Assembly (NCBI RefSeq): GCF_014203795.1
Contig: NZ_JACHJU010000004.1
Location: 310,001 to 374,000, forward strand
Direction: 5' to 3'
DNA from: Streptosporangium album
GTDB lineage: Bacteria; Actinomycetota; Actinomycetes; Streptosporangiales; Streptosporangiaceae
Length of the DNA stretch: 64,000 nt
Under the pieces are notes generated by a model, which worked only from the letters and a program-made list of their open reading frames with translations, did no database searches and was not told where the DNA came from. The position numbers were made by a program, and so were the translations under genes. This document shows positions 47,561 through 62,183 of the stretch, piece after piece (position 1 is the stretch's first letter; each line of letters opens with the position of its first letter).

Positions 47561-47680
47561 GAGAGACGGCCCGGCCACCAACGGGTCGCCTCGTCTCGCG
47601 AGGCCAGCCTGTGCTGAGGCGGCCGAAAGGCCCGGTCCCTGATGACCTGTGCCCGCTGTCTCCCCCGCACGCGAACGTGT

Positions 47681-48532
47681 TCACCGGACAGGGCTCACGA
47701 CCAGCGGGCAGGCGGCCTGGTGGAGCAGCGAGTGGCTCACCGAGCCCAGGAGCAGCCCGGTCAGGTCGCCTCGGCCGCGCGACCCCACGACCAGCAGATC
47801 CGCCTGCGCCGAGGCGTTCTTCAGGACGTCCACCGGGTGTCCGCACTCCACCTGTTCGGTGACCTTGACATCCGGATAGCGCTCGCCCCAGCCCGCCAGA
47901 GCCTCGGCCAGCAGGCGCCGCTCCCCTTCGGCCGCCTCCTCCGCGACCGCCAGGGCGGACGGCCCCCAGCCACCGATGACCGGCGGGTGCCACGCGTGAA
48001 CCGCCCGCAGGCCGGCGCCCCGCAGGGACGCCTCGGCGAAGGCGAATCCGAGGGCGTGCGCGCCGGCCGGGGAGCCGTCGACGCCGACGACCACCTCACC
48101 GTACGGCGGTGCGGGCGGATGCCGTATGACGGCGACCGGGCAGGTGGTGCGTCCGGCCACGCCCAGCGGGACCGATCCCAGCAGCATGCCCCGGAAGCCC
48201 CCCAGCCCATGGCTGCCGACCACCAGGAGCTCCGCGTCCGCTGTGGCCTCGATCAGGACGAGCCGGGGGTCACCCGGCAGCAGCCGCGACTCCACAGGGA
48301 CGCGTCCGTCTTCCTCACGGACCCGTTTCACCGCCTCGGCCAGCATGGAGGCGGCCCCGTCGCGCATCCAGCGGCCCACGTCCGCGTGCGGGGCGTCTTC
48401 GGACATCTCCAGCGGCCAGGCCGGCATGACGTGAACGATGCGCAGCCCGGTTCCGCGCACACCGGCCTCCCGCACCGCCCAGCTCACGGCCTCAAGACCG
48501 GCCCGCGAGCCGTCGACTCCCACCAGGATCAT
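47681..48532 (-). CDS. Universal stress protein, tandem UspA domains (USP 1)
   Basis: A 283-residue protein of two UspA folds. Each has an N-terminal VGVDGS-type strand (residues 3-9; VVVGVDGSPAGA at about 148) and an ATP-binding loop G-x2-G-x9-G-S (GSHGLGGFRGMLLGS; GSRGRGDLTGLLLGS). Such cytoplasmic proteins bind ATP and support survival in hypoxia, stationary phase or dormancy. ATG 48532 follows GGGGG. The palindromic site at 48590 lies upstream. Confidence 0.93.
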   Translation of the reverse strand: MILVGVDGSRAGLEAVSWAVREAGVRGTGLRIVHVMPAWPLEMSEDAPHADVGRWMRDGAASMLAEAVKRVREEDGRVPVESRLLPGDPRLVLIEATADAELLVVGSHGLGGFRGMLLGSVPLGVAGRTTCPVAVIRHPPAPPYGEVVVGVDGSPAGAHALGFAFAEASLRGAGLRAVHAWHPPVIGGWGPSALAVAEEAAEGERRLLAEALAGWGERYPDVKVTEQVECGHPVDVLKNASAQADLLVVGSRGRGDLTGLLLGSVSHSLLHQAACPLVVSPVR

Positions 48533-48589
48533 GACATCCCCCTTCCGGTGTCTCCATCACAACGCCGGACGGCACGGGGGAACACCGGC

Positions 48590-48616
48590 GAAAGTCCTCT
48601 TTCCCCGGGACTCCGG
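48590..48616 (-). promoter_or_regulatory. Stress-island inverted motif, copy 1
   Basis: GAAAGTCC, nine bases, then GGGACTCCGG. It ends 58 nt before the USP 1 start codon. Same arms, spacing and distance as six other copies in this island. Confidence 0.7.
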
Positions 48617-48734
48617 TCATCGTGGGTGAGGAAGCCCTACTGGTGGCAGGAACAGACGGAGGGTCGTGAGGCCCTCGACGGGGGTCCTCAGGGCTCGGCG
48701 TGACCAGGTCCGGGTGAGGCCCGGAAGTCCCCGT

Positions 48735-49736
48735 TCAGTGGGGCGGGCGTTCTTCCAGCACCTCGGTGACCGGACGCCGGACACCTTCGCTCTCGTCGAT
48801 GGCGAAACCCAGTCGCATGATCATCTGGGGATACTCCCCCGACAGGAGTTCCTGCCTCAGGAACTCCCGAAGGTGGAACATCTCCAGCGCCTGAGTGTGG
48901 AAGGCCGCGCTCACGTCGTAGGCGGAGGCGTGCAGCAGGACGCGTTGCAGCGCCTGGCCGGCCGTGATCCAGTCCTCGCGGGAGTCCCCCGCCGTGGTCA
49001 GGACCGCCACGGTTCCGGGGGAGGTGGACACGGACTGGTCGGAGTCGCTGCCCCACGGGCGGCCGTGGGCGTAGTCGCGCTGGGCGAAGCGCGGACGGGT
49101 CGGCTCGGGTTCGCGGGGATAGCCCTGCGCCGGGACCCCCTCCCGGCGGGAGCTTCCCGGCGGCTGCGACCAGCGGATCATCTCCAGGGTGAACAGCCGG
49201 TCCTCGGACTGCACGTCCTGGGCCACACAGGTGAGTCCGGCGATCACCCGGACAGCGGCCTCGGACCGGACCGGTGTCAGCCGCGCCCCCTCCGCGCTCG
49301 CCTGGGAGACGAAGTTCTCCACCAGGCGGTCCGGCATGGGCAACTCGGTGAATCCGGCACGGTGGGTGCGGCGCCGTTCGATCTCGGCGTGCAGCAGCCG
49401 GATGTGCTCGTCGGGGACCGCGGGCGCTCCCATCCGCACCGTCGCCAGCAGGGCGGGGCGATCGGGGTCCGGCAGCACGCGCACCTGTGTCTCATAGCAG
49501 AGCGCGCGCAGCGCGAGCCGCACGTTCATCAGGGCCGCACCACAGCTGATCAGCAGTTCCCGGCCCGTGGCGTCGCCGAGCCGCAGCTTCCTGCCGCTGT
49601 CGGACCGCAGGGCGATCTCGCCTCCGTCGATGGTGAAGGACCAGGGCTGGGTGTTGTGCACCGAAGGTGCCCATACGGCGGCCTGGACCGCCCTGTGCAG
49701 CACCGAGCTGATCTCCTCGGTTGTGCGGGCGTTCAT
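48735..49736 (-). CDS. Acg-type nitroreductase family protein
   Basis: A 333-residue member of the Acg family: AVQAAVWAPSVHNTQPWSFT near the N-terminus is the FMN-binding start, and the C-terminal half has HASAYDVSAAFHTQALEMFH. In mycobacteria Acg is a DosR-dependent flavoprotein that lacks normal nitroreductase activity and may store FMN. ATG 49736 follows GGAGG. It is 12 nt behind the CBS-BON gene, so both share the promoter with the motif at 50468. Confidence 0.88.
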   Translation of the reverse strand: MNARTTEEISSVLHRAVQAAVWAPSVHNTQPWSFTIDGGEIALRSDSGRKLRLGDATGRELLISCGAALMNVRLALRALCYETQVRVLPDPDRPALLATVRMGAPAVPDEHIRLLHAEIERRRTHRAGFTELPMPDRLVENFVSQASAEGARLTPVRSEAAVRVIAGLTCVAQDVQSEDRLFTLEMIRWSQPPGSSRREGVPAQGYPREPEPTRPRFAQRDYAHGRPWGSDSDQSVSTSPGTVAVLTTAGDSREDWITAGQALQRVLLHASAYDVSAAFHTQALEMFHLREFLRQELLSGEYPQMIMRLGFAIDESEGVRRPVTEVLEERPPH

Positions 49737-49748
49737 CTTTCGCCTCCA

Positions 49749-50414
49749 TCACAGGTAGAGGGGCGGGATGCGGGCCAGGTCGTCGGACTCGTAGACCAGG
49801 CCGTTCTCGACGTCGAGGACACCCTCGATCCCGCGGACCGCGGCGACGAGCTGTGAACTCTGCGAGTGGAGGCCGACCCGGCCCGTCAGCGTCACCACGC
49901 CGGCCTCGTTGCCGACGGCCAGCTTCTCCCGGTCGACGCGGAGCCGGTCACAGATCTCGGTGATCTCCCGGTCGATCTCCTCGACGGGACGGACGAAGAC
50001 CTTGAGCAGGTCGCTCTGCTGGACGCACCCGGTGATATGTCCGGTGTCCGCGTCGACGACGGGCAGTTGCTTGATCCGGTTCCGGTGCATCAACCGCGCC
50101 GCGTCCCGGACGGGGGTGGCCTCCGTGACAGTGATCACGGGGGTGGTCATGATCTCCCCTGCCGTGGTACCCATGGCCTTCCGGTGTTCCTCGCGGTTCC
50201 TGCGACCGCCGAAGACGCCGCCCATGCGCCCGCGGGAATCGGTCTCCTTCAACAGCAGGTCGTCCTCCGAGACCATGCCGACGGGACGGTCATCGGCGTC
50301 GATGACGGTGACCGCGCCGACCTTGAACTGCCGCATGGCATCGACGATCTCGGTGAACGACGCCTCCCGCCGCACCGCGACCGCCCGCACCCCCATGACA
50401 TCCTTGACCTTCAT
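49749..50414 (-). CDS. CBS-pair protein with C-terminal BON domain
   Basis: A 221-residue protein: two CBS motifs (VKDVMGVRAVAVRREASFTE at the start; AGEIMTTPVITVTEATPVRD from about residue 85) form a Bateman module that senses adenine nucleotides. Residues about 145-215 are a BON domain (VGNEAGVVTLTGRVGLHSQS), a lipid- or osmotic-shock-associated fold. ATG 50414 follows GAGGAGG. First gene of an operon with the Acg-type gene; a motif copy is 54 nt upstream. Confidence 0.9.
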   Translation of the reverse strand: MKVKDVMGVRAVAVRREASFTEIVDAMRQFKVGAVTVIDADDRPVGMVSEDDLLLKETDSRGRMGGVFGGRRNREEHRKAMGTTAGEIMTTPVITVTEATPVRDAARLMHRNRIKQLPVVDADTGHITGCVQQSDLLKVFVRPVEEIDREITEICDRLRVDREKLAVGNEAGVVTLTGRVGLHSQSSQLVAAVRGIEGVLDVENGLVYESDDLARIPPLYL

Positions 50415-50467
50415 GGTTGACCTCCTCGTTACGAGGATTCCGGAACGGCGCCGGCGGCGGCAGCGGC

Positions 50468-50494
50468 GAAAGTCCCCGATGCAGGGGACTTACG
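50468..50494 (-). promoter_or_regulatory. Stress-island inverted motif, copy 2
   Basis: GAAAGTCC, nine bases, then GGGACTTACGG. This is the most symmetric copy: AAGTCCCC faces GGGGACTT. It ends 54 nt before the CBS-BON start. Confidence 0.75.
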
Positions 50495-50592
50495 GTCACG
50501 TTCCGCGCGACCGGGCGTCGTCATGCCGGCGAGCCGGCCGTTCCGCAATGGCGCCGGATCGGGACTCCCTGCCTTCCCCGCCCGGGCGGATG

Positions 50593-51489
50593 TCAAGGTC
50601 TGACCACCGCGACCGGGCAGCGGGCATGGTTCAGCACGCCGCGGCTGACGGAGCCCAGTAGCACCGAACCGACGGCACCCATCCCCCGCGACCCCACGAC
50701 GACGAGGTCGGCCCTGGTGGAGGCGTCTTCGAGGGCGTCGACGGGGTGCGCACTGTGGACGTCCTGCACCACCTTCACCTCGGGGAACTTCTCCTGCCAG
50801 GCGCTGAGTCCGTCCTTGACCATCTGGTGCTGTGTGTGGCGGATCTCGTCCATGTTGTAGGAGATCTCCGGGGCGAAGGCATGCACCGGCAGCTGCCAGG
50901 CGTGTACGGCGCGCAACGCGCAACCGCGCAACCTGGCCTGTTCGAAGGCGTAGGCCAGCGCGGGCTCGCACTGCGGGGAGTCGTCGACACCGACGACGAC
51001 CTCGCGGTGCGTCTCCTCACCGCCGAGGCGGACCACGACCACCGGGCCATGGGCGTGCCCGGCCACATGAGCGCTCACCGATCCGACCAGGGCTCCCGCG
51101 AAACCGCCCAGCCCCCTGCTGCCGAGCACGATCTCGGTGGCGTTCTCGGCCTGTTCCCGCAGGACCGCGACCGGGGAGCCCTCGATCAGCTCGGTGCCCA
51201 CCTCGACGGACGGCTGGCGCGCCCGTGCCATGCGCTCGGCCTCCAGTAGCACCTCCCGCCCGTTCACGATCAGTGTGTCCGGTTGACTGGGAGTGGCGAA
51301 CCGGGGGATGTCGTAGGGCCCGCGCTCCACGACGTGCACGATCCGCAGCGGCAGCCGTCGCAGGGAGGCGTCGTCCGCGGCCCATCGCACCGCTCTGTCC
51401 GCGTCGGCCGAGCCGTCCACCCCGACGACGACCGTAGAGGAGCCGTCACGCGCGTCCGGAACCGGCTGGTAGGTGTCCGTCGAAGTCAT
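50593..51489 (-). CDS. Universal stress protein, tandem UspA domains (USP 2)
   Basis: A 298-residue two-domain UspA protein. The domains start at VVVGVDGSADADRAVRWA and VVVGVDDSPQCEPALAYA; ATP loops are GSRGLGGFAGALVGS and GSRGMGAVGSVLLGS. A 17-residue N-terminal extension precedes the first strand. ATG 51489 follows AGGAGGGG. A separate unit: it ends 179 nt before the CBS-BON start and has its own motif copy. Confidence 0.93.
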   Translation of the reverse strand: MTSTDTYQPVPDARDGSSTVVVGVDGSADADRAVRWAADDASLRRLPLRIVHVVERGPYDIPRFATPSQPDTLIVNGREVLLEAERMARARQPSVEVGTELIEGSPVAVLREQAENATEIVLGSRGLGGFAGALVGSVSAHVAGHAHGPVVVVRLGGEETHREVVVGVDDSPQCEPALAYAFEQARLRGCALRAVHAWQLPVHAFAPEISYNMDEIRHTQHQMVKDGLSAWQEKFPEVKVVQDVHSAHPVDALEDASTRADLVVVGSRGMGAVGSVLLGSVSRGVLNHARCPVAVVRP

Positions 51490-51554
51490 GGTCCCCTCCT
51501 GGCGTGGATCGTCGGTTCAAGCGTCCGCTGCGGGCATAGAGGTTCCCAGGGGCG

Positions 51555-51582
51555 CCGGACCCGCTCGCGCAGGGACTTTCGG
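51555..51582 (-). promoter_or_regulatory. Stress-island inverted motif, copy 3 (left half weak)
   Basis: The right half GGGACTTTCGG is perfect; the left half is GCCGGACCC instead of GAAAGTCC. It ends 66 nt before USP 2. Confidence 0.5.
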
Positions 51583-51732
51583 CCTGATTTCCCGGGCGTC
51601 TTCACGGAGGCGGCCGATCCGCCGCCTGGCCGCGGAAGAGAGCCGGAGGGCCAGGTAGGTCATGCTGTTCGGGAGCCCCCGTCCGGGTGCGGCCTCGCGG
51701 TGTGAAGGGCCGGGCCCCGGGCGGATTCCCCG

Positions 51733-52215
51733 TCATTCCCACGCGACCCGGGGCAGGACCGGGGTCAGGCGGAACATCCCCGTCATCAACTCCGGCGGCT
51801 CCTCCCGCTCGGCGACCCGTCCGGCCACGGCCCTCAGCACGTCGGTGGCGGTCACCATCCCCACCAGCCTGTGTGCCTCCCCCAGGACCGGGATCGCGTC
51901 GACGCCGGCACCGACCATGGCGGCCGCCGCCTCGGCCAGGCGCGCGTCGAGCGTGGTGTGCGGGCATCGGCGATCGGCCAGCAACGCATGGACGCGCACG
52001 CGTGACTGCTCGATCGGGCCGCCGGACCAGTGAGCGGTGAGATCCTCCTTGGTGAGGACGCCCCGCAGGCGGCCGTTCCCCTCCACGACCGGCAGGTGAT
52101 GGATGCCCGCCCGGCACATGATCTCCCAGGCCATGAGCGGGGACTCGTCCGGGGCGACGGCGACCAGCGTCCTGCTCATCACCTGCCCCACCGTGAGGTT
52201 CTGTACGTCCATCAC
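51733..52215 (-). CDS. CBS-pair protein
   Basis: A 160-residue protein made of two CBS motifs: VGQVMSRTLVAVAPDESPLM and DARLAEAAAAMVGAGVDAIP with VTATDVLRAV at the end of the second. Such stand-alone Bateman modules sense AMP/ATP or NADPH. ATG 52215 overlaps the stop of USP 3 (TGATG), so it is translated with that gene. C-terminal 20 residues are variable. Confidence 0.88.
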   Translation of the reverse strand: MMDVQNLTVGQVMSRTLVAVAPDESPLMAWEIMCRAGIHHLPVVEGNGRLRGVLTKEDLTAHWSGGPIEQSRVRVHALLADRRCPHTTLDARLAEAAAAMVGAGVDAIPVLGEAHRLVGMVTATDVLRAVAGRVAEREEPPELMTGMFRLTPVLPRVAWE

Positions 52216-53078
52216 GCCTCCCCCCGGGCGCGTACCACCGCGACGGGGCAGTGGGCGTGGTGCAGGACTCCGTGACTCACCGAGCCCAGTACGGCCGAGC
52301 CGAGCCTGCCCAGGCTCCGCGAGCCGACGACCACCAGGTCCGCGGTGACGGACGCCTCGCAGATGACGGCGACGGGATGCCCGCAGACCGCCGTCTCCTC
52401 GACCTCGATCTGCGGATACTTCCCCCTCCAGGGGGTGAGCGTGTCCGCCGCGACACGCCGCTCGGTCTCCATGAGCTCCTCGATCAGCATCGGATAGGCG
52501 GTGGCCCCCTGTCCCATGACGGGCATCTGCCAGGTGTGGATCGCGTGCAGCCGGGCGCCGCGCCGGGTGGCCTCCTCGAATGCGTACTCCAGGGCCGCCG
52601 CCGAGTGGGTAGAGCCGTCGAAGCCGACGACGACCTCGTCATACGTCCGCTCCTGTGATCCTCTGACGACCACGACCGGTACGTTCACGTGCCCGGCCAG
52701 GGCGAGGGAGACCGAGCCGAGCAGCAGTCCGGTGAACCCGCCGAGGCCCCGGTTGCCCACCACGACCTCCTCGGCGTCCTCGGCCTCCCGCTGGAGGACC
52801 TCGGCGATCCGGCCCGTTTCGAGCACGGTCTCCACCTCGATCCCCGGGGCGCGTTCACGTGCCAGGTCGGCTGCGGTGTCGAGCACGCCCTGGCAGTAGC
52901 CGGTCATGGAGTCGCGGAACCCCGGAGGGGTCTGCAGCGGGATGTCGTAGGTCCACGGTTCGCGCACGTGAACGATCCGCAGGGCGCGTCCCCGCCGCGC
53001 CGCGTCGGCGGCGGCCCACGCGACCGCGGCCCGCGAAGAAGGTGAGTCGTCCGCGCCCACCACTACATGCGCTGTCAT
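52212..53078 (-). CDS. Universal stress protein, tandem UspA domains (USP 3)
   Basis: A 288-residue two-domain UspA protein: VVVGADDSPSSRAAVAWA and VVVGFDGSTHSAAALEYA begin the domains; ATP loops are GNRGLGGFTGLLLGS and GSRSLGRLGSAVLGS. The third position of the second loop (S for G) departs from the consensus. ATG 53078 is supported by GGGAGGCGAC immediately upstream. First gene of a two-gene operon with the CBS protein. Confidence 0.93.
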   Translation of the reverse strand: MTAHVVVGADDSPSSRAAVAWAAADAARRGRALRIVHVREPWTYDIPLQTPPGFRDSMTGYCQGVLDTAADLARERAPGIEVETVLETGRIAEVLQREAEDAEEVVVGNRGLGGFTGLLLGSVSLALAGHVNVPVVVVRGSQERTYDEVVVGFDGSTHSAAALEYAFEEATRRGARLHAIHTWQMPVMGQGATAYPMLIEELMETERRVAADTLTPWRGKYPQIEVEETAVCGHPVAVICEASVTADLVVVGSRSLGRLGSAVLGSVSHGVLHHAHCPVAVVRARGEA

Positions 53079-53137
53079 GTCGCCTCCCTGGGCTCTCACT
53101 TCCATCCGACCGTCTCCCGGCGTTTTTCGCAGCGGCC

Positions 53138-53165
53138 GAAAGACCTGGTCATCCGGGACTTCCGG
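53138..53165 (-). promoter_or_regulatory. Stress-island inverted motif, copy 4
   Basis: GAAAGACC, nine bases, then GGGACTTCCGG; it ends 60 nt before the USP 3 start. Confidence 0.65.
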
Positions 53166-53211
53166 CACTGGCTTGGACGTGACCGTCCCGTCGCTCCTCG
53201 CTCCTCGCGCC

Positions 53212-54060
53212 TCAAGCGGGATGCGGAACCACCGCGACCGGGCAGTGGGCGTGAAGCAGCACGCCACGGCTCACCGAGCCGAGGACGGCCGCGCCGAACC
53301 CGCCGAGCCCTCGCGATCCCACCACCACCAGGTCCGCCTGGGCCGAGGCGTCGCAGAGGGCGGCCACCGGATGGGACTGGACCGTCGTCTCGGCCGTCTC
53401 CACCTGCGGATGGCGTTCCAGCCACGCCTTCAGCGCCTCCCGCACCGCGCTTTCACCGGAGCCGGAGAGGTCCTGGGGAGGAGCGGAGCGGCCGAGCGCG
53501 TACGGCACCTGCCAGGCGTGGACCACCCGGAGACGGGCCCCTCGGCGGGCGGCCTCCGCGAAGGCGTACTCCAGCGCGGCCTGGGACGCCTCCGACCCGT
53601 CGAACCCCACGGCGATCTCCGCTTGGACGGTGTCCTGGTCGCTGCGCACGACGACCAGCGGACAGGACGTGTGCCCCGACAGCCCCATCCCCACCGACCC
53701 GACCAGCATGCCGGCGAAACCGCCCAGCCCCCGGCTGCCGACGACGACCTGGACCGCCTGCTCGGCCGCCGCGAGCAGTGTCTCGATGATCCGGCCCGGG
53801 ATGAGCGCGGCGGTCACCGCCAGGCCGGGAGCCTGGGCCCGTGCGGCGTCGGCCGCGGCGTCGGTCATCTCCTCGCAGGATCGGGACACGCCTTCGGGGG
53901 CCTCAGGCACCTGCAGGTAGGGAACGTCATAGGCCCACGTCTCGCACACGTGGACGACGCGCAGGGCGCAGTTGCGGCGGACGGCGTCTTCCGCCGCCCA
54001 CTTCACCGCGATGGCCGCCGGTCTCGAACCGTCCGTACCGACCAGAACGTGCCCGGCCAT
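53212..54060 (-). CDS. Universal stress protein, tandem UspA domains (USP 4)
   Basis: A 282-residue two-domain UspA protein: VLVGTDGSRPAAIAVKWA and IAVGFDGSEASQAALEYA; ATP loops GSRGLGGFAGMLVGS and GSRGLGGFGAAVLGS, both canonical. ATG 54060 follows GGAGGAGGGGG. It ends 51 nt upstream of copy 4 of the motif, and has its own copy upstream. The IS1182 insertion is 171 nt beyond its start. Confidence 0.93.
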   Translation of the reverse strand: MAGHVLVGTDGSRPAAIAVKWAAEDAVRRNCALRVVHVCETWAYDVPYLQVPEAPEGVSRSCEEMTDAAADAARAQAPGLAVTAALIPGRIIETLLAAAEQAVQVVVGSRGLGGFAGMLVGSVGMGLSGHTSCPLVVVRSDQDTVQAEIAVGFDGSEASQAALEYAFAEAARRGARLRVVHAWQVPYALGRSAPPQDLSGSGESAVREALKAWLERHPQVETAETTVQSHPVAALCDASAQADLVVVGSRGLGGFGAAVLGSVSRGVLLHAHCPVAVVPHPA

Positions 54061-54129
54061 GTCCCCCTCCTCCGCCTCGTGGTCGCGTCATCTCCATCGC
54101 ACACCTCCGGCGGGCAGCCCGCAGGGGCC

Positions 54130-54157
54130 GAACGTCCCCCGCCCGCGGGACCTCCGC
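54130..54157 (-). promoter_or_regulatory. Stress-island inverted motif, copy 5
   Basis: GAACGTCC, nine bases, then GGGACCTCCG; it ends 70 nt before the USP 4 start. The IS1182 element begins about 75 nt farther out and leaves the site intact. Confidence 0.65.
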
Positions 54158-54231
54158 CCCTTCTCCGTCGCGCCGGTGAGCACCATCTGACAAGGCGCTA
54201 CCGGGCTGCGGGCCGGTGCTCCGGCCTTCAG

Positions 54232-55991
54232 GACTCCGTTGGCGAACCCGGTTGATCGTTCCGGAAGCTCTAACTAAGGTCTGCGCAAGATCCGAATTGG
54301 GCTGGAGGGCGGGCAGCGTGTCGATGTATCCGAAGTCGTTCATGGAGATTCCGGAGTCGACCCGCAGGGTCGCGGTGGCCGCGTTTCCCAAGGGCAGCAT
54401 GTGCATGCGGCTGCGTGACGCGTTGGGGACGGTGTTCAGCGACGAGGAGTTCGCCGATCTGTTTCCCGGTGAGGGGCGGCCGGCTGAGTCTCCGGGACGG
54501 TTGGCGCTGGTGCTGCAATACGCCGAAGGCCTGTCGGATCGTCAGGCGGCCGATGCGGTTCGTGGTCGGCTCGATTGGAAGTACGCCCTGGCCTTGGAGT
54601 TGGAGGACTCCGGTTTCGACTTCTCGGTGTTCAGTGAGTTTCGGGACCGGGTGATCGATGGCTCGGCCGAGGAACGGATTTTGGAGCTGCTGCTGGAGCG
54701 GTTGTGGCGGGCTCGCCTGCTGCGTGCGGGTGGTCGTGCGCGTACCGATTCCACCCACGTGTTGTCGGCCGCCCGGACGTTGAACCGGCTGGAGCTGGTG
54801 GTCGAGGCGATGCGGGCGGCCTTGAACGCGCCGGCGACCGCAGCGCCGTCCTGGCTGGCCCCGCTGATCAGCGAACAGTGGTGTGAGCGGTATGACCAGC
54901 GCGCCGACTCCTACCGCCTTCCCAAAGGGGACCAGGCCCGCGCTGAGCATGCGACCGTGGTGGGCCAGGACGGATACGCCCTGCTCGAAGCCGTCTACCG
55001 CCAGGATGCGCCGTCCTGGCTTCGTCGGATCGAGGCCGTGGAGACCCTGCGCAGGTGCTGGGTCCAGCAGTACTACCGTGACCACGCCGGGGTGCGGCTG
55101 CGCGAACAGAAAGATCTTCCTGTCGGCGGTAACCGGCTGGCCGGCCCCTATGACACCGACGCCCGCTACGCGGTCAAGCGCGGCAGCGGATGGACCGGCT
55201 ACAAGGTGCACCTGACCGAGACCTGCGAGCCGGACCGTCCGCACCTGATCACGCACGTGGCGACCACCCCCGCGCCGGTGGACGACAGCGAGGTCACCGG
55301 GCTGGTCCACGAGAGCCTGGAGCGGCGCGGGTTGCTGCCCGACGAACACGCCGTGGACAGCGCATATGTCAGCGCCGAGCATCTGGTGAGCGCTCGTGAC
55401 AGGTTCGGGATCGACGTCCTTGGCCCGGTCTCGGCCGACACCGGCTGGCAGACCAAAGACGGCGACGCGTTCCAGACCACCGATTTCTGCGTCAACTGGA
55501 ACGCTGGGCAGGTCATCTGCCCGCAGGGACATGCCAGTCCGTCCATGGCCGGCCAGCGCACCAGGACCGGGCATCCCGTCATCAAGGTGAACTTCTCCCA
55601 GGCCCACTGCACTCCCTGCCCGGTCCGCGCTCGATGCACCAAGTCGGCCACCGCCTCTCGCAAGCTCACCCTGCGGCCACGTGACCAGCACGAGGCGCTC
55701 GCTCAGGCTCGTGCCGTTCAGCAAGGCGAGCAGTGGCAGCGCCGCTATCAGATCCGGGCCGGGGTCGAAGACACGATCTCCCAGGCAGTCCGCGGTCATG
55801 GCCAGCGCCGTTCCCGCTACATCGGCCTGGCCAAGACCCACCTACAGAGCGTGTTGACCGCCACAGCGATCAACTTGGTACGCATCGACGCATGGCTGAC
55901 CGGCACGCCTTTAGGCCCAACCCGCACGTCACACTTCATCGGACTACGGTAAGCGATCAGTGCATAACGCACTGTATTCGCCAACGGAGTC
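54232..55991 (+). mobile_element. IS1182-family insertion sequence, complete, with 6-bp direct repeat
   Basis: Terminal inverted repeats are exact: GACTCCGTTGGCGAA at 54232-54246 and TTCGCCAACGGAGTC at 55977-55991. CTTCAG flanks it directly on both sides (54226-54231; 55992-55997). Removing the element and one repeat restores CCGGCCTTCAGGCCGG, a hairpin with 6-bp arms and a TTCA loop, so the element entered a stem-loop. It contains one uninterrupted transposase gene. Confidence 0.85.
54318..55952 (+). CDS. IS1182 family transposase
   Basis: A 544-residue DDE transposase. The N-terminal domain has TRRVAVAAFPKGSMCMRLRD and LQYAEGLSDRQAADAVRGRL (DUF772). Catalytic Asp is in RTDSTHVLSAAR, with a second Asp in EHAVDSAYVSAEHL; four C-terminal-region cysteines (CPQGH, CTPCPVRARC) form a zinc-binding insert, then VEDTISQAVRGHG supplies the Glu. 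GTG 54318 follows GGAGGGCGGGC; ATG 54324 is equivalent. Full length and probably active. Confidence 0.9.
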   Translation: MSMYPKSFMEIPESTRRVAVAAFPKGSMCMRLRDALGTVFSDEEFADLFPGEGRPAESPGRLALVLQYAEGLSDRQAADAVRGRLDWKYALALELEDSGFDFSVFSEFRDRVIDGSAEERILELLLERLWRARLLRAGGRARTDSTHVLSAARTLNRLELVVEAMRAALNAPATAAPSWLAPLISEQWCERYDQRADSYRLPKGDQARAEHATVVGQDGYALLEAVYRQDAPSWLRRIEAVETLRRCWVQQYYRDHAGVRLREQKDLPVGGNRLAGPYDTDARYAVKRGSGWTGYKVHLTETCEPDRPHLITHVATTPAPVDDSEVTGLVHESLERRGLLPDEHAVDSAYVSAEHLVSARDRFGIDVLGPVSADTGWQTKDGDAFQTTDFCVNWNAGQVICPQGHASPSMAGQRTRTGHPVIKVNFSQAHCTPCPVRARCTKSATASRKLTLRPRDQHEALAQARAVQQGEQWQRRYQIRAGVEDTISQAVRGHGQRRSRYIGLAKTHLQSVLTATAINLVRIDAWLTGTPLGPTRTSHFIGLR

Positions 55992-56178
55992 CTTCAGGCC
56001 GGGGGTGAAGGCCCGCGCGGGAAGGCCGCCAGGCCTGTTCGGCATTCCCTTGGGGCGTGTCCTGACCGGAGCGAACCGCCACGACTCCCCAAGTTCTGAG
56101 CCTGGGGGTCACGCCGTCGTATAACTGCGGCTCAGAGGCCGGATGTTCGCGGTTGGCATCCGCTATAGGGTGGCCGCC

Positions 56179-56769
56179 ATGCCGCCCAAGAGCTTCTACG
56201 ACCTGGCCTTCGGGGTGTCCCCAGGAGGGGCCCGTAAGGACGCCCACTACGTCCGGGGCAGCCTCGACGAGATCAAGGCCGATCTGGCATATGAGCTCTC
56301 CGAGAGCATCAATGTGTATCTGCTGTGCTGGTACGGCGCGGAGCTGGCGCTGCATGTGTACGAGCAGGGCGAACGGGTGCACTCGATCGACCTCCACCCG
56401 TTCATCACGGTCTCGGTCGACGGCTATCCGGACATCACCTTCCTTGACTCAGGCAAGCCGACCGGATACGACATCGGCGCGGACGACCGGGACAAGGTGA
56501 GGATGACGCTCTCTGACGGAATGTTCTCCGGGGAGCTCGACAATGCGATCAAGGTCACCGTTGATTGGGACGGCGTCGACGTCCCGTCACTGGTCGGCGA
56601 GATCGCGGTGGAGAACGACTATGTGAAGCTCATCGATGATCATCTCGACGGCCTCCACGATGACGATGACGATGACTTCGACGAGGATGACTTCGACGAG
56701 GACGAGCTGGAGGACGAGCTGATCGATCGGGGCTATATCCCTTACGGATTCATCGACTTCGAGGCTTGA
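56179..56769 (+). CDS. Hypothetical acidic protein with Asp/Glu-rich tail
   Basis: A 196-residue protein of unknown family. The N-terminal 150 residues look globular, with strands such as INVYLLCWYGAELALHVYEQ and YPDITFLDSGKPTGYD. Residues about 158-180 are almost all Asp, Glu and Phe, and the last residues are GYIPYGFIDFEA. There is no signal peptide or membrane segment. ATG 56179 has no clear ribosome site, and TATAGGG lies 12 nt before it, compatible with a near-leaderless transcript. An acidic tail could mimic nucleic acid, but nothing shows this. No partner is evident; it lies between IS elements. Confidence 0.65.
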   Translation: MPPKSFYDLAFGVSPGGARKDAHYVRGSLDEIKADLAYELSESINVYLLCWYGAELALHVYEQGERVHSIDLHPFITVSVDGYPDITFLDSGKPTGYDIGADDRDKVRMTLSDGMFSGELDNAIKVTVDWDGVDVPSLVGEIAVENDYVKLIDDHLDGLHDDDDDDFDEDDFDEDELEDELIDRGYIPYGFIDFEA

Positions 56770-56950
56770 GCCACGTCATCTGGGGGCTCCCGTACAGGAT
56801 CGCCTGCAGCTTGTCGAAGACGGTCCGGTCGCTGACCCGTCGGCGGTGGCAGCCCAGCGGGTGGGACGGATCGAACTCCGAGCGATAGGGCAGCAGAGCA
56901 GCAAATTGGTCCCACAGCGGCTCGGTCAGCCATGATGGCAGTGCAGGCAC
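56750..56950 (-). pseudogene. IS5-family transposase N-terminal fragment
   Basis: GTG 56950 begins VPALPSWLTEPLWDQFAALL then SEFDPSHPLGCHRRRVSDRT, the DUF4096-like start of IS5-type transposases of actinomycetes. After about 58 codons it breaks and stops (MTWLKPRSR). Its 3' edge overlaps the end of the acidic-protein gene on the other strand. Confidence 0.7.
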
Positions 56951-56999
56951 AGGTCCCCCGGATGATCACAGAGCGTCGCAACTCCATGCCGGGGCAGCG

Positions 57000-57146
57000 C
57001 CAGTCGCCGGCTCGGGCGTTCGGGTGCGCGCGGACGGTGTTCAACGATGGGCTGCGCACACGTCAAGACGCCCGCGAACAGGGCTTGCCGTACATCTCCG
57101 ACGGCGAGCTGTCCAAGCGGGTCATCACGGCCGCGAAGCAGACGCC
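57000..57146 (+). pseudogene. TnpB N-terminal fragment
   Basis: SPARAFGCARTVFNDGLRTR then QDAREQGLPYISDGELSKRV and ITAAKQTP match the first 50 residues of an IS605/IS607-type TnpB, where the helical wedge begins. It is cut at about 57146 against an IS1182 fragment and has no own start. Confidence 0.7.
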
Positions 57147-57149
57147 GGG

Positions 57150-57572
57150 GCGCCGGGCACATAGACCGCCTCCAGCAGGGCGAAAGCATCGGTCCCGACA
57201 CTCAGAGCCCACCGGGTCCGGGCGTCTTCCCCCTTGGGGAACCGATAGGCGTCCACCCGCGCCCCATACCGTTCGATCCACTCGGCCGAGACCACCGCCG
57301 TACTTCCAGTCGATCCGCCCGCGCACCGCGTCGGCGGCCTGCCGATCGCTCAGCCCTTCGGCGAACTGCAGCACCGACACCGGCGCCGGTATCCCGGGAG
57401 ACAGCCCAGGTCCGCCCCGCGCAGGAAACGCCTCGGCGAACTGCTCGTCTTCGAAGAACGGACCGAGTTCATCACGGACCCGCATCGCCAGACATCCCTT
57501 GGGGAAAGCCGCCCATGCTATCCGGACGGTTGATTCCGGCACCTCACCAGCGGGACAGGGACGCAGAGACAT
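57150..57572 (-). pseudogene. Second IS1182-family transposase, truncated and internally deleted
   Basis: ATG 57572 starts MSLRPCPAGEVPESTVRIAW; then AFPKGCLAMRVRDELGPFFE and LQFAEGLSDRQAADAVRGRI match the same N-terminal domain as the intact element at 54318, but with many differences. After DWKYG the catalytic part is deleted; a fragment in another frame (VVSAEWIERYGARVDAYRF) continues until about 57150. Confidence 0.75.
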
Positions 57573-57699
57573 GGCAGAACCTCCTCCACACACACTGCCT
57601 GCAAGAGGGTTCCTCCACCGTGTCACGTCAAACGATCATCACCACTCGAATCGGCCAACAGTCTTCCTGTCCCTTCCGGTGACGCCACGCAGGCGTGAA

Positions 57700-57899
57700 A
57701 ATTGGGGTGGGTTGCCCGCCGACGCCGGCATTGTCTCTGGGGCGTATGAGCCCGTCCAACAGTCTGGCGCCGGGGCCCGACCCTGACGGGTCACGCACTG
57801 TTGCCTTCGAGCACGCCGGTCAGACTGTTCGGTTCCCGACCGAGGCCCCCGGGCATCCCGCCACCTACCCCCTGATCTTGGTGAGGAGAACGATCACCG
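57700..57899 (+). ncRNA. Candidate bridge RNA region of the IS110 element
   Basis: About 200 nt of non-coding DNA precede the transposase, the position where IS110-group elements encode the bridge RNA that pairs with target and donor. Several short self-complementary tracts occur (e.g. GGGCCCGACCC, and TGACGGGTCA near 57783). The loops cannot be assigned without a folding model and element ends, so this rests on position only. Confidence 0.3.
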
Positions 57900-59264
57900 G
57901 TGACGATGCGAGAATCTGTGGAGATCCCGGACGAAGAACACGAGCGACTCATCGAACGGGTCGCCGCGATCGATGTGGCCAAGGCCTTCGGGAAGGTGTG
58001 TACCCGGGTGCCGCACGAAGGCAAGGCCGGTCGGCGGCCGACCAAGGTGTGGGACGTGGACGCCACCATGAACGCGGTCACCGAGCTGGGCGACCACCTG
58101 GTGTGCCAGGGAATCGAGAAGGTCACCGTCGAATCAACCGGGGATTACCGGCGCATCTGGTTCTACGTGCTGGAGGAGCGTGGCCTGGATGTGCAGCTGG
58201 TCAACGCCCGCGATGTGAAGAACCTGCCGGGCCGTCCGAAAACCGACAGGCTGGACGCGGTCTGGCTGGCCAAACTGACAGAGAAGGGGCTGCTGCGGCC
58301 CTCGTTCGTCCCGCCCAAGGAGATCCGGACGCTGCGGGACTACACCCGGATGCGGGTGGATCTGATCGGCGAGCGGACCCGGTACCGGCAGCGGCTGGAG
58401 AAACTGCTGGAAGACTCCCTGATCAAGGTGTCGTCGGTGGCCGGCACACCGACGACCGCCTCGACCCGGGACATGATCGAGGCATTGATCACCGGGGAGC
58501 GCGATCCGCGGGTGCCGGCCGAGCTGGCCCGGGGCAAGATGCGGGCCAAGATTCCCGCGCCGGTCGAGGCATTGACCGGCCAGTTCGACGGCCACCACGC
58601 CGAACTCGCCACGATACTGCCGGCGCAGATCGACAGCCTGGACGCGTCGATCGCCCAGCTCACCGCCCGCATCGAGACGCTGCTCGGGCAACTGCCCGCC
58701 GACCAGGCATCCGACGACCGTGACGATCACGGGCCGGGTGAGCACGCCGAGGTTGCCGCGATCATCCGCCAATCGCTGAACGCGGTGCAACGGTTGGACG
58801 AGATCCCCGGCATCAGTCCGGAGATCGCCCAGGTCATCCTGGCCGAGGTCGGGCTGGACATGACCCGCTTTGCCACTGCCGGCCACCTGGCCTCCTGGGC
58901 CAAGCCGTGTCCCCGCACCATCCAATCGGGGCCCAGGAGCCGGGGCGGCGAGACCGGCAAGGGCAATCCCTATCTGAAGGGCGTACTGGGAACCGCCGCG
59001 GCCGTGGCGGCCCGGACCGACACCTTCCTCGGCGAGCGCTACCGGCGGATCGTCAAACGCCGGGGCAAGCTCAAGGCCCTGGTCGCCGTGGCCCGCTCGA
59101 TCCTGGTCATCGTCTGGCACCTGCTGGCCGACCCCACCGCCCGCTACCGCGACCTGGGCGCCGACTACCACACCACCAAGATCGACCGGGATAAGAAGAC
59201 CCGCACCCACGTCCGGCAACTCCAAGCGCTCGGCTTCACCGTCGCCCTGACCCAGACCGCCTGA
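57900..59264 (+). CDS. IS110 family transposase (DEDD)
   Basis: A 454-residue recombinase. The N-terminal RuvC-like domain has Asp in RVAAIDVAKAFGKV, Glu in KVTVESTGDYRR and the KTDRLDAVWLAKL motif. The C-terminal Tnp_20 domain has LDEIPGISPEIAQVILAEVG and the serine-bearing region TIQSGPRSRGGETGKGNPYL. Length and motifs are complete. GTG 57900 lies 10 nt after AGGAGAA; ATG 57906 is possible. Confidence 0.9.
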   Translation: MTMRESVEIPDEEHERLIERVAAIDVAKAFGKVCTRVPHEGKAGRRPTKVWDVDATMNAVTELGDHLVCQGIEKVTVESTGDYRRIWFYVLEERGLDVQLVNARDVKNLPGRPKTDRLDAVWLAKLTEKGLLRPSFVPPKEIRTLRDYTRMRVDLIGERTRYRQRLEKLLEDSLIKVSSVAGTPTTASTRDMIEALITGERDPRVPAELARGKMRAKIPAPVEALTGQFDGHHAELATILPAQIDSLDASIAQLTARIETLLGQLPADQASDDRDDHGPGEHAEVAAIIRQSLNAVQRLDEIPGISPEIAQVILAEVGLDMTRFATAGHLASWAKPCPRTIQSGPRSRGGETGKGNPYLKGVLGTAAAVAARTDTFLGERYRRIVKRRGKLKALVAVARSILVIVWHLLADPTARYRDLGADYHTTKIDRDKKTRTHVRQLQALGFTVALTQTA

Positions 59265-59375
59265 CCCACACCGCTCCCCACCAGCCCTGACTCACATCGA
59301 TGGCCGGGGTTCGCTGCCGCGCGCCCGGCTGAGGTGGTCATTTTCCGGTCAGAGTCCTTCAGGGCGGAGTGGATG

Positions 59376-60236
59376 TCAACAGGACGGAACGACGGCGACG
59401 GGGCAGGACGCGTGCCTGACCAGGGACCGGATGACCGCTCCGGGGTGGCCGGTGCGATATGCCGTCCGGCCTGTGCCGACGACGACGAGGGTGGCCCCTA
59501 TGGAGGCGGCCCGTAGGGTCTCTTTCGGGGCGTTCGTGGTGAAACGGACGTCGACGGGGACGTCCGCGTACTTCTCCTGCCAGGGCGTCAGGCGTTCGTT
59601 CATCCATTCCTGGCAGGCCCGGGTCGAGTCGTCGAGATCGGGTAGGTGGGTCATGGCGACGCCCCAGGTCAGAGAGCGCGGGTGGCCGGCGTGCAGCACG
59701 CGCAGGCGCAGCCGCCGCAGAGCAGCCTCGTGGAAGGCGAAGTCCAGCACCTGGTCGGCGGTGGTGTCCCTGATCCCCAGCGCGACCGGCCCTGGATGCA
59801 GTGGCACCGGGATCGGGCCCGCCCCTCGCACGACGACCGCCGGGCACTGCGCGCCGGCCACGACGGAGGCCGTGACGGAGCCGACCGCGGACCGGGCCAC
59901 CGCGCCCAGGCCGCGGGAGCCGACCACGACGAGTTCGGCGTCAGCCGACAGCTCGATGAGCCGCTGCCCGGCGGAGCCCTCGTAGAGGTCGGTCGCCACG
60001 TCGGTGATCGTGCTGCATCCGCGGGCACAGTCGGCACCGTGGTAGAGGACGTGCTCGGCCGCCTTGCGCAGGTGGAGCTTGGCCTCGTCGTCGGCCTCGC
60101 CGTACGGCCACCGCCACGCGTGGGTGACGGTCAACGGCAGCCCCCGGAACTCGGCCTCGTCCAGCGCCCACTCCAGGGCCTGCATGGAGAAGTCCGAACC
60201 GTCGTAACCAACGACAATTCTGTGCGACTTTGTCAT
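59376..60236 (-). CDS. Universal stress protein, tandem domains, second ATP loop degenerate (USP 5)
   Basis: A 286-residue UspA pair. Domain 1 starts IVVGYDGSDFSMQALEWA and has a canonical ATP loop GSRGLGAVARSAVGS. Domain 2 is more divergent: it starts VALGIRDTTADQVLDFA without the usual D-G-S and its loop (GTGRTAYRTGHPGAV) lacks the G-x2-G-x9-G-S spacing, so it may not bind ATP. ATG 60236 follows GGAAAGGGG; the longer open frame upstream is not similar to Usp proteins. Confidence 0.9.
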   Translation of the reverse strand: MTKSHRIVVGYDGSDFSMQALEWALDEAEFRGLPLTVTHAWRWPYGEADDEAKLHLRKAAEHVLYHGADCARGCSTITDVATDLYEGSAGQRLIELSADAELVVVGSRGLGAVARSAVGSVTASVVAGAQCPAVVVRGAGPIPVPLHPGPVALGIRDTTADQVLDFAFHEAALRRLRLRVLHAGHPRSLTWGVAMTHLPDLDDSTRACQEWMNERLTPWQEKYADVPVDVRFTTNAPKETLRAASIGATLVVVGTGRTAYRTGHPGAVIRSLVRHASCPVAVVPSC

Positions 60237-60287
60237 GATTACCACCCCTTTCCATGGTTGGCCATGCCGGGCGGGGACAGCAGGGCG

Positions 60288-60316
60288 GAACGTCCCTGTT
60301 CGCGGGTGACTTCCGA
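60288..60316 (-). promoter_or_regulatory. Stress-island inverted motif, copy 6 (one base inserted)
   Basis: GAACGTCC, then CTGTTCGCG and GGTGACTTCCG, i.e. a T interrupts the right half. It ends about 52 nt before USP 5. Confidence 0.55.
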
Positions 60317-60489
60317 CCTCTTTACGGCTCCGAGCCCCGGAAGCCCCGGCGGGCCGCGAGGCAGGTTCGGGCTTCAACGCGTCGTTGTCACGTATCGGGC
60401 GTAACGGCCAGGGGGCAGGGACAGGGAGACACCCGGCCGGCACCGATGACCTGGTGGATCAAGGCGGATCGGCTCACCTGGCACAATGA

Positions 60490-60819
60490 ATGGCCATGTT
60501 CCCCCACGACGCGGTTCTCTGCGACCTCGACGGCGTGCTCCGTCGCTTCGACCATCCGGCCCAGGCCGACATCGAGGCCCGTTACGGACTGCCTCTCATG
60601 GAGACGGCCTTCGACCCGGCTCTGATCGGGCCCGCCACGCTCGGCATGGCCAAGCCCGACAGGCGTATCTACGAACTCGCCGCCGAGCGCGCGGGCGTCG
60701 CCCCCGAGCGATGCCTGTTCGTCGACGACCGCCTGGAGAACGTGGAGGCCGCCAGGGCCCTCGCGATGACCGGCGTGCACTACAGGAGCGTGGAGGACCT
60801 GGCGGCCGTGCTCGGCTAG
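60490..60819 (+). CDS. HAD-family hydrolase, cap domain missing
   Basis: A 109-residue in-frame protein carrying HAD motif I (VLCDLDGVLRRF), then, after only about 35 residues, GMAKPDRRIYELAAERAGVA (motif III Lys) and CLFVDDRLENVEAARALAMT (motif IV Asp pair). Related HAD proteins are about 190-220 residues, so roughly 90 residues with the cap and motif II (S/T) are gone while the frame is kept. Probably a deletion derivative; catalytic activity is doubtful. ATG 60496 is also possible. Confidence 0.6.
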   Translation: MAMFPHDAVLCDLDGVLRRFDHPAQADIEARYGLPLMETAFDPALIGPATLGMAKPDRRIYELAAERAGVAPERCLFVDDRLENVEAARALAMTGVHYRSVEDLAAVLG

Positions 60820-60990
60820 GTGTACCGCCCAGGCAGGTTGGTGACGCGACTGGCGGGTGGAAGTCCTCCGAGCGCGGTGTGTCCTCGGTGATGGTTGTAC
60901 ATGTGTAGCCAGATGGTGAAAGCGGCGCGCCGTTCGGTCTCTGAGCGGTAGGGGCGGAGCCGGATGGGCTGAACGGCCTTCGCGGAGATC
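60816..60990 (-). pseudogene. IS481/IS3-type integrase C-terminal fragment
   Basis: RLRPYRSETERRAAFTIWLH then MYNHHRGHTALGGLPPASRV and TNLPGRYT stop: the C-terminal end of an integrase-core transposase, containing the last conserved region (NxxRxHxxLGGxPP) after the catalytic Glu. The body of the gene is absent. Confidence 0.75.
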
Positions 60991-61023
60991 GCCTCGCACG
61001 TCGGGTGCGGGGCGGTGCGGGAT

Positions 61024-61095
61024 CTCTTCAGGGTTCCCTCGGGCCAAGGCGCCATGAGTCTCCTCAGGGTTCCCGCGTGCCAGGGCACCATGCAC
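61024..61095. repeat. Two tandem copies of a 36-bp unit
   Basis: Positions 61024-61059 and 61060-61095 share about 29 of 36 bases (both begin CTC-CTCAGGGTTCCC with T/C change). Lies between the IS481 fragment and USP 6; length is divisible by three but no gene is evident. Confidence 0.7.
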
Positions 61096-61181
61096 GGGGG
61101 CTCACCGTCTTCGGGCGACCGCCCCGTGAACGAGAGACCCGGAGACCGTCCCGTTGGGGTTCATCCGCCTTTCGGCGGCGG

Positions 61182-62030
61182 TCACCTGACGATCGCGACG
61201 GGACAGCGCGCGTGGTGGATCACCCCGTGGCTGATCGAGCCCAGAATGACCGACCCGACGGCGCCTCGGCCACGCGAGCCCACGACGAGCAGGGCGGCCC
61301 GTGGTGAGACGCCCACCAGAGCCGACACCGGGTGGGCGTACGTCACGTCCCGGACGACCCCGACCTCGGGGAACTTCTCCTCCCAGGCGGCGAGCTGGCC
61401 CATGGTCATCCGCTGCTGCGCCTGCCGTACGTCCTCGATGTCGTAGACGACCTCCGGCGCGAAGGCGTGGACGGGCACCTGCCAGGCGTGAACGGCGCGC
61501 AGAGCGCACCCGCGCAGCCGGGCCTGCTCGAAGGCGAACCCCAGAGCGGGCTCGGATCCGGAGGATCCGTCGACGCCGACGACGACCTCGCCGGACGGCG
61601 TGCCCGCGTCCCTTCCGACGACCACCACGGCGCCAGGCACGTGACCCGCCACGTGAAGGACCGCCGAGCCCAGCAGGGCGCCGACGAAACCCCCCAGACC
61701 ACGGCTGCCGATCACGAGCTCGGTGGCCGCCCCGGCCTGCTCGCGCAGCGCCTTGGCGGGTTCTCCCTCGAGCAGCGCGGTCGTCACGCGCACGTCCGGC
61801 CACCTTTCCCCGACGGCCTTGATCGCCTCGGTGAGCACCTGCTCGCCGGCGCGCGTCATGAGGTCGAGCCAGTCGGGCGGAGGAAACGCGGCGATGCCGT
61901 ACGGCCAGCGGTCCACGACATGGGCGATGCGCAACGGCAGCCCCCGCCGGTCGGCGTCGCCGGCCGCCCACTGCACAGCCGCGGTGGCGGTGGCTGAGCC
62001 GTCCGTCCCGGCAACGATCGCTTCAGTCAT
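61182..62030 (-). CDS. Universal stress protein, tandem UspA domains (USP 6)
   Basis: A 282-residue two-domain UspA protein: IVAGTDGSATATAAVQWA and VVVGVDGSSGSEPALGFA; ATP loops GSRGLGGFVGALLGS and GSRGRGAVGSVILGS, both canonical. Its second domain and the segment ALRAVHAWQVPVHAFAPEV are very similar to USP 2, suggesting a duplication within the island. ATG 62030 follows GGGAGG. Confidence 0.93.
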   Translation of the reverse strand: MTEAIVAGTDGSATATAAVQWAAGDADRRGLPLRIAHVVDRWPYGIAAFPPPDWLDLMTRAGEQVLTEAIKAVGERWPDVRVTTALLEGEPAKALREQAGAATELVIGSRGLGGFVGALLGSAVLHVAGHVPGAVVVVGRDAGTPSGEVVVGVDGSSGSEPALGFAFEQARLRGCALRAVHAWQVPVHAFAPEVVYDIEDVRQAQQRMTMGQLAAWEEKFPEVGVVRDVTYAHPVSALVGVSPRAALLVVGSRGRGAVGSVILGSISHGVIHHARCPVAIVR

Positions 62031-62081
62031 GGTTCCTCCCGCTGTCCATCGGACCGCAGCACGGATGACTTCCCCAGGGGC

Positions 62082-62110
62082 GATCGTCCCGAGATGGACG
62101 GGACCTTCGC
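62082..62110 (-). promoter_or_regulatory. Stress-island inverted motif, copy 7
   Basis: GATCGTCC, ten bases, then GGGACCTTCG; it ends 52 nt before USP 6. Confidence 0.6.
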
Positions 62111-62183
62111 CCCCTCACGGACGCGGCCCCGCACCGCAGCCGTTCCTCCCGGGAGGAACGGTCACCGGCCGACGGCTACGATC

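Follow-up and report, generated by a model that had tools for sequence, protein, structure and literature searches.

The stretch analysed here (the window) comprises 64,000 nucleotides of the 9.02-Mb genome of Streptosporangium album, C4:310001-374000, where C4 denotes contig NZ_JACHJU010000004.1. The window carries six universal stress protein (usp) genes and a presumed operon of a CBS-BON gene and an Acg-type nitroreductase gene, and each of these seven is preceded by one copy of an inverted sequence motif, which is the subject of this report. All of the genes, boxes and promoter elements placed below in window coordinates at these seven loci are on the minus strand. The identities given in the preliminary description of this DNA are borne out by Pfam, which finds Usp in all six usp products, CBS and BON in the CBS-BON protein, and Nitroreductase in the product of the second gene of the operon (the name Acg is that of the preliminary description). 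The genes are usp1 (47681-48532), the nitroreductase gene (48735-49736) and the CBS-BON gene (49749-50414), usp2 (50593-51489), usp3 (52212-53078), which is followed by a gene for a CBS protein (51733-52212, Pfam CBS), usp4 (53212-54060), usp5 (59376-60236, the start being chosen by reading) and usp6 (61182-62030). Between usp4 and usp5, at 57900-59264, lies a frame that resembles, by reading, an IS110-type transposase.

The preliminary description reported seven copies of the motif GAAMGTCC - about 9 nt - GGGACYTNCG, ending 52-70 nt before the start codons. All seven copies are found again at the reported places, each with a GTCC...GGGAC-type pair, and with the gene starts read at 48532, 50414, 51489, 53078, 54060, 60236 and 62030 the distances are 52-70 nt. 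The motif itself stands at the seven loci with two corrections: the left arm at usp2 fits poorly and scores only on the other strand, and the right arm at usp1 is GGGACTCCGG. Two spacer classes are seen, in which GTCCC and GGGAC are separated by 8 or 9 nt. When up to two mismatches and a gap of 9-10 are allowed, the motif occurs in eight 20-bp bins of the window, which are the seven loci, compared with a mean of 0.16 and a maximum of 2 bins in 100 first-order Markov shuffles, a comparison that flatters the motif because the pattern was derived from these very sites. Independent tests are provided by a scan with an OsdR matrix, a genome scan with held-out sites and a scan with the DosR consensus. 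A candidate eighth pair at 47619-47656 on the minus strand is weaker and within noise (13.5 bits, E 1.15), and a lone box with one mismatch to the DosR consensus lies at 48717-48731, between the end of the nitroreductase gene and the usp1 promoter. The motif continues past the window, with ten more candidate pairs in the next 50 kb. The loose core AGTCC-N10-GGACT was also counted over the whole genome and set aside; it has 152 matches per strand compared with 305 for its reversed control and, being the rarer of the two, is uninformative when taken alone.

The arms of the motif had been described as facing outward, unlike the compact DosR box. This description is to be replaced, since the two arms are the inner halves of two adjacent compact boxes. 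Written in the direction of the genes, the sites have the form GGnCGAAAGTCCC-N8/9-GGGACnTTCGSCC, and each arm, read from inside to outside, is GGGAC-NWWN-G-nCC, that is, a box of the DosR/OsdR type whose inner half is strong and whose outer half is degenerate. The OsdR matrix was built from the 25 box sequences in Table 1 of the OsdR paper (PMC5069765), with no input from this genome, and was applied to 298,271 positions of C4. Among these positions the near-symmetric proximal boxes of usp4 (54124-54139), usp5 (60282-60297) and usp6 (62076-62091) rank 2, 3 and 9, and the strong distal box of usp2 (51571-51586), with two mismatches to the DosR consensus, ranks 23. The DosR consensus, GGGACTTNNGNCCCT, was taken in the form in which a Mycobacterium smegmatis paper quotes it. 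Eight of the 14 arms are within two mismatches of it and 12 are within three; within two mismatches there are only 51 of the 298,270 positions of C4, including the eight arms, and 27 of the 51 fall in a 68-kb island, where 11.7 are expected by length. One mismatch is found in the proximal box of the CBS-BON/Acg operon (50462-50477) and in the distal boxes of usp3 (53154-53169) and usp4 (54146-54161), and two are found in the distal box of usp6 (62099-62114). Three mismatches are found in the distal box of the operon (50484-50499), in the proximal box of usp1 (48584-48599, matrix score -1.55), in the weak proximal box of usp2 (51548-51563, -1.11) and in the weak distal box of usp5 (60305-60320, -0.33), and four in the proximal box of usp3 (53132-53147), which serves the unit of usp3 and the CBS gene, and in the weak distal box of usp1 (48606-48621, -5.99). 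As a separate observation, a repeat of 9-bp period at 43432-43500 (CGGACCGAACGGGCCGACCAGG...), perhaps a low-complexity coding sequence, scores in the matrix scan as many overlapping OsdR-like boxes.

A single everted operator, in which GTCCC-N8/9-GGGAC would bind one dimer of another regulator in outward geometry, unrelated to DosR, would account for the fact that conservation is much stronger in the inner halves than in the outer halves. The outer halves are, however, above chance. At the outer end of each arm, the last four bases are not part of the motif as first described; taken over all arms, they match TCCC at 32 of 56 places. The expectation is 16.2 from 1606 control half-sites, with none of 20,000 draws reaching 32; the 288 non-coding half-sites give an expectation of 17.4 (p 0.0001). 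Palindromic GGGNC-N4-GNCCC boxes are likewise present upstream of the targets, in degenerate form and above chance, and the boxes of usp4, usp5 and usp6 are near-symmetric on their own. Counts of exact half-sites, made without any matrix in 60 devR loci of other genomes together with the island of S. album, give 30 for GGGAC-N4-GTCCC, 23 for GTCCC-N8-GGGAC and 10 for the N9 form, against a background of about 4 at other distances; eight everted pairs at N8 or N9 lie in the 80-kb stretch of S. album. In addition, five triples of the form GGGAC-N4-GTCCC-N8/9-GGGAC occur in relatives, two perfect boxes at a distance of 22 bp are present in Rhodococcus yunnanensis (locus L269), and devR itself is inside the island. 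The single operator is therefore considered very unlikely, and the sites are treated below as pairs of compact boxes.

In each of the seven promoters of the window, 22 or 23 bp separate the centres of the two boxes, the distal box of usp1 being weak in its 22-bp pair. The same spacing is found in other actinomycetes. A single-box matrix made from the sites of S. album and applied to 140 loci of other actinomycete genomes yields 17, 65 and 22 pairs at 21, 22 and 23 bp, respectively, and 0-5 pairs at each of the other spacings from 16 to 39 bp, counts that are not independent, because the loci overlap in ancestry and one site may count at adjacent spacings. The most frequent spacing is 22 bp in seven of eight groups and 23 bp in the genus of S. 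album. Pairs at 22 bp also occur around devR in the Mycobacteriaceae, and a Mycobacterium from a bog (locus L219) may be named as an example of a pair; if only exact half-sites are counted, mycobacteria show a small peak (four GTCCC-N8-GGGAC in 827 kb, with 0-3 at most other gaps). The exact box spacing is not found in the literature searched, including the parts consulted of PMC3338549 and PMC7018068, and any view of the 22-bp rule as unpublished would depend on this search only.

The genome scan proposed in the preliminary description has its best matches, which are the training sites and four others, at stress genes of a single island next to devR, but it was run only in part (150 of 7,765 first-look candidates scored); since both whole-genome model scans scored only 150 of 7,737 and 7,765 such candidates, members of the regulon outside the island may be missed. 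With a model of the seven window sites, four held-out sites outscore the top match in the rest of the 9.02-Mb genome. These are C4:422929, 400166, 388089 and 419007, with 23.6, 20.0, 19.1 and 17.5 bits, respectively, and the best off-island match is C1:609034 with 15.6 bits. None of the four is more than 50 kb past the window end, and they stand before an HTH-PNPOx gene (422929), hsp20 (400166), a usp gene (388089) and a CBS-BON-like gene (419007). Other candidate pairs on C4 precede usp genes (386886 and 402593) and a CBS-BON-like gene (417325), and one lies between ftsH and an AAA_33 gene (376138), where one box is a perfect match to the DosR consensus. For genes beyond the window, the names usp and CBS come partly from BLAST against the window genes. 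Targets of mycobacterial DevR include usp, hsp20 and nitroreductase genes. By Pfam, the typical targets present in S. album are usp, hsp20, nitroreductase, CBS and PNPOx genes.

A model of 17 sites was also scanned against the genome and is rejected as evidence: the 17 loci above its first match off C4 are exactly its own training sites. The scan is thus circular, and the 7-site model is used instead. Among four off-island matches of the 17-site model, judged with rough frames, two (L095 and L098) are inside open frames and two (L096 and L097) are upstream of minus-strand frames. At L096 (C2:1169010-1169154) a cluster of DosR-type boxes lies upstream of a gene whose translation reads as SPFH/stomatin-like, near a CBS gene, and it is a possible member of the regulon outside the island. 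A lone box is also seen at C4:374068-374083, 68 bases past the window end, before a phosphoribosyltransferase-hydrolase gene (window 62629-63951).

The pairs may, in principle, be relics, namely DosR-type boxes that were merely inherited through tandem duplication of usp genes and have for the most part ceased to function. The six usp genes are paralogous, and some usp promoters are alike beyond the boxes, namely those of usp2 and usp386, and likewise those of usp6, usp388 and usp402. Pairs also stand, however, ahead of the unrelated hsp20, CBS, PNPOx and ftsH genes, and the spacer sequences vary freely while the boxes and their spacing stay. This explanation is regarded as extremely unlikely.

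The preliminary description had suggested a regulator like DevR/DosR or OsdR and had stated that it is not encoded in the window. The second statement is correct, and a devR/dosR gene lies 5.2 kb past the window end. It occupies C4:379207-379845 and encodes a response regulator of 213 amino acids with Response_reg and GerE domains. Its best match in PDB is DevR (3c3w) with 266.7 bits, and the next is VraR with 152.6 bits. A different response regulator encoded in the genome is a less likely candidate, as the closest other full-length regulator is only 41% identical to DevR (157.7 bits, compared with 444.8 bits for the self-match of DevR). Residues D54, T82, K179, K182 and N183 are kept, and K179, K182 and N183 are what we take to be the DNA-contact residues. 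In the literature consulted in part, Thr82 of DevR is described as required for cooperative binding. A box, AGGACCTTGGTCCCT, begins 50 nt ahead of the devR start codon. A devR of such similarity is widespread: at E <= 1e-70 one is found in 111 of 121 genomes of the order, and at E <= 1e-60 in 151 of 197 genomes of the class.

An intact devS lies inside C4:407.8-409.5 kb, 28 kb from devR, and has the domains GAF, GAF, HisKA_3 and HATPase_c. Its GAF-A domain aligns with that of DevS over 149 residues (168.7 bits), and by its sequence the product appears to be a heme-GAF sensor kinase of the DevS/DosT type. A truncated copy of devS adjoins devR (C4:379755-380558, minus strand). Part of one GAF domain is found in it by Pfam, by which the kinase part is not found, and stretches of 299 and 303 bases are 99.3 and 99.7% identical to the DNA of the intact devS. 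A fragment of the start of devR, with 38 residues at 97% identity, lies at C4:399925-400038, just before hsp20, and has its own upstream box at C4:399876. The separation of devR and devS seems recent, because of the near-identical truncated devS copy and the 38-residue devR fragment.

Downstream of the box pairs, a putative -10 element is seen in a majority of promoters. ATGG begins at +34 (six cases) or +35 (four cases) from the centre of the proximal box in 10 of 18 pair promoters of S. album, compared with a chance expectation of 0.2 for a four-position span. In this count the divergent sites 376138 and 419007 are represented by the ftsH side and the CBS side only (ATGG is not found at their uncounted sides), and two promoters (392933 and 400870) are without an assigned gene. 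Six of the ten have the hexamer GATGGA, and the other four have GATGGG or CATGGR. In the window the putative -10 is GATGGA at usp1 (48553-48558, with ATGG at +34), usp3 (53101-53106), usp4 (54093-54098) and usp6 (62045-62050), and CATGGA at usp5 (60251-60256), each located by the offset of ATGG from the proximal box. With the proximal box near -44, the GATGGA-like element would take the -10 position. In Mycobacterium tuberculosis, according to the portions of the literature consulted, the proximal DevR site overlaps the -35 region, and its distance to the transcription start is of a similar order. In other genomes, with the genus of S. album excluded, [GC]GAT is found at +32 on 13 of 156 sides, the level at other offsets being about 2; related mycobacterial promoters account for many of these cases, and a few come from the family of S. 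album and from family f21.

The promoter arrangement also bears on the view that the inverted repeat works as RNA, either as a hairpin of the 5' leader or as a terminator of the upstream gene. GTCCC...GGGAC can indeed pair, and the sites of the window lie between or after tandem genes. Pairs are also found, however, between divergent genes (C4:376138, 388147 and 419007, by our own gene calls), and no T run is found downstream in the sequence examined. The spacing is fixed at 22 or 23 bp, and 10 of 18 promoters have the -10-like element on the downstream side of the pair. A function as RNA is thus hardly credible.

Several results weigh against the reading of the motif as paired DevR/DosR (OsdR) sites at a common type of promoter. 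With the OsdR matrix, four of the 14 arms score below zero. No exact GGGAC-N4-GTCCC box is found in the 80-kb stretch of S. album, so that the outer halves there are degenerate. Over the whole genome, single boxes show no enrichment (80 matches compared with 191 for the reversed control), which indicates that it is the box pair that matters. Among the ten sites outside the window, 417328 is below the best off-island match and five are not listed by the 7-site model, while the 17-site model recovers above noise only the 17 sites on which it was trained. To these may be added the dependence among the spacing counts. As for the promoters, the -10-like element is not found in eight of 18, including those of CBS-BON and usp2 in the window, and the GATGGA-like sequence differs from the usual TANNNT.

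When these points are weighed, it remains very probable that the motif represents paired predicted DevR/DosR (OsdR) sites and that the genes form a stress regulon of the known dormancy type. The suggestion of a shared regulator of the DosR/OsdR type for the usp, Acg and CBS genes is thereby upheld, with devR nearby and with arms that mostly fit the published sequences, although some fit poorly. The closest parallels are two. As described in the parts consulted of PMC5069765, the OsdR (SCO0204)/OsdK regulon of Streptomyces coelicolor, with its core at SCO0167-SCO0219, similarly clusters usp genes, a nitroreductase gene and a DevR-type regulator, with AGGGCCGATCGGCCCT-type boxes near the genes; the Streptomyces core also holds nitrate reductase genes. 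In contrast to the published OsdR consensus, which is a single symmetric 16-mer, the boxes of S. album are paired, and in each the inner GGGAC half is strong and the outer half weak. The mycobacterial DevR/DosR system shares with S. album a homologous regulator and heme kinase, the consensus quoted above and tandem boxes; according to the parts consulted of PMC3029386, PMC4973870, PMC5360333 and PMC6448022, tandem sites are bound cooperatively there, with the proximal one over the -35 region, and some targets carry one box. It differs in that the arms of S. album are less symmetric and that in S. album 28 kb separate devR from the intact devS. The GATGGA-like -10 of S. album is also unlike the seven -10 sequences in Table 2 of PMC5360333.

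By analogy with these systems, a mechanism may be proposed that starts from the DNA sites, their spacing and the two-component genes observed in S. album and takes binding, signal and activation from what is published on DevR and OsdR. DevS, the presumed heme kinase, would sense low oxygen or redox stress and phosphorylate DevR. One dimer of DevR, a response regulator of the NarL family, would occupy each 14-16-bp box, and since boxes 22-23 bp apart are separated by about two helical turns, two dimers of phosphorylated DevR (DevR-P) would lie on the same face of the DNA and bind cooperatively. The gene-proximal box would be at about -35, with the GATGGA-like -10 in most cases 33-38 nt from its centre, which would make this a class II activator promoter. 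DevR-P would then recruit RNA polymerase to a poor -10 and switch on the usp, CBS-BON, nitroreductase, hsp20, FtsH and PNPOx genes jointly, and probably devR as well.

A more general proposal is that a class-wide grammar of DosR/OsdR promoters, not described in the literature consulted, extends from Mycobacterium to the order of S. album. Its elements would be two boxes with strong inner halves, 22 +/- 1 bp apart, and, about 32-38 nt from the centre of the proximal box, a -10 that departs from TANNNT and reads [GC]GAT[GC]G. This proposal is tentative, and we consider it slightly more doubtful than probable. If it is true, a single rigid assembly of RNA polymerase with two DevR dimers would act at these promoters, the -10 would hold them silent when DevR is absent, and both would have been preserved from Mycobacterium to the order of S. 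album.

The results correct the reading of the motif, which represents paired compact boxes and no new operator geometry, and would place a usp-rich actinomycete island under the DosR/OsdR dormancy system. In genomes where a single box is too weak to stand out, the 22-bp spacing together with a GATGG-like -10 offers a rule, open to test, by which DosR targets may be sought, and S. album may serve as another system for studying the activation of RNA polymerase by two DevR dimers.

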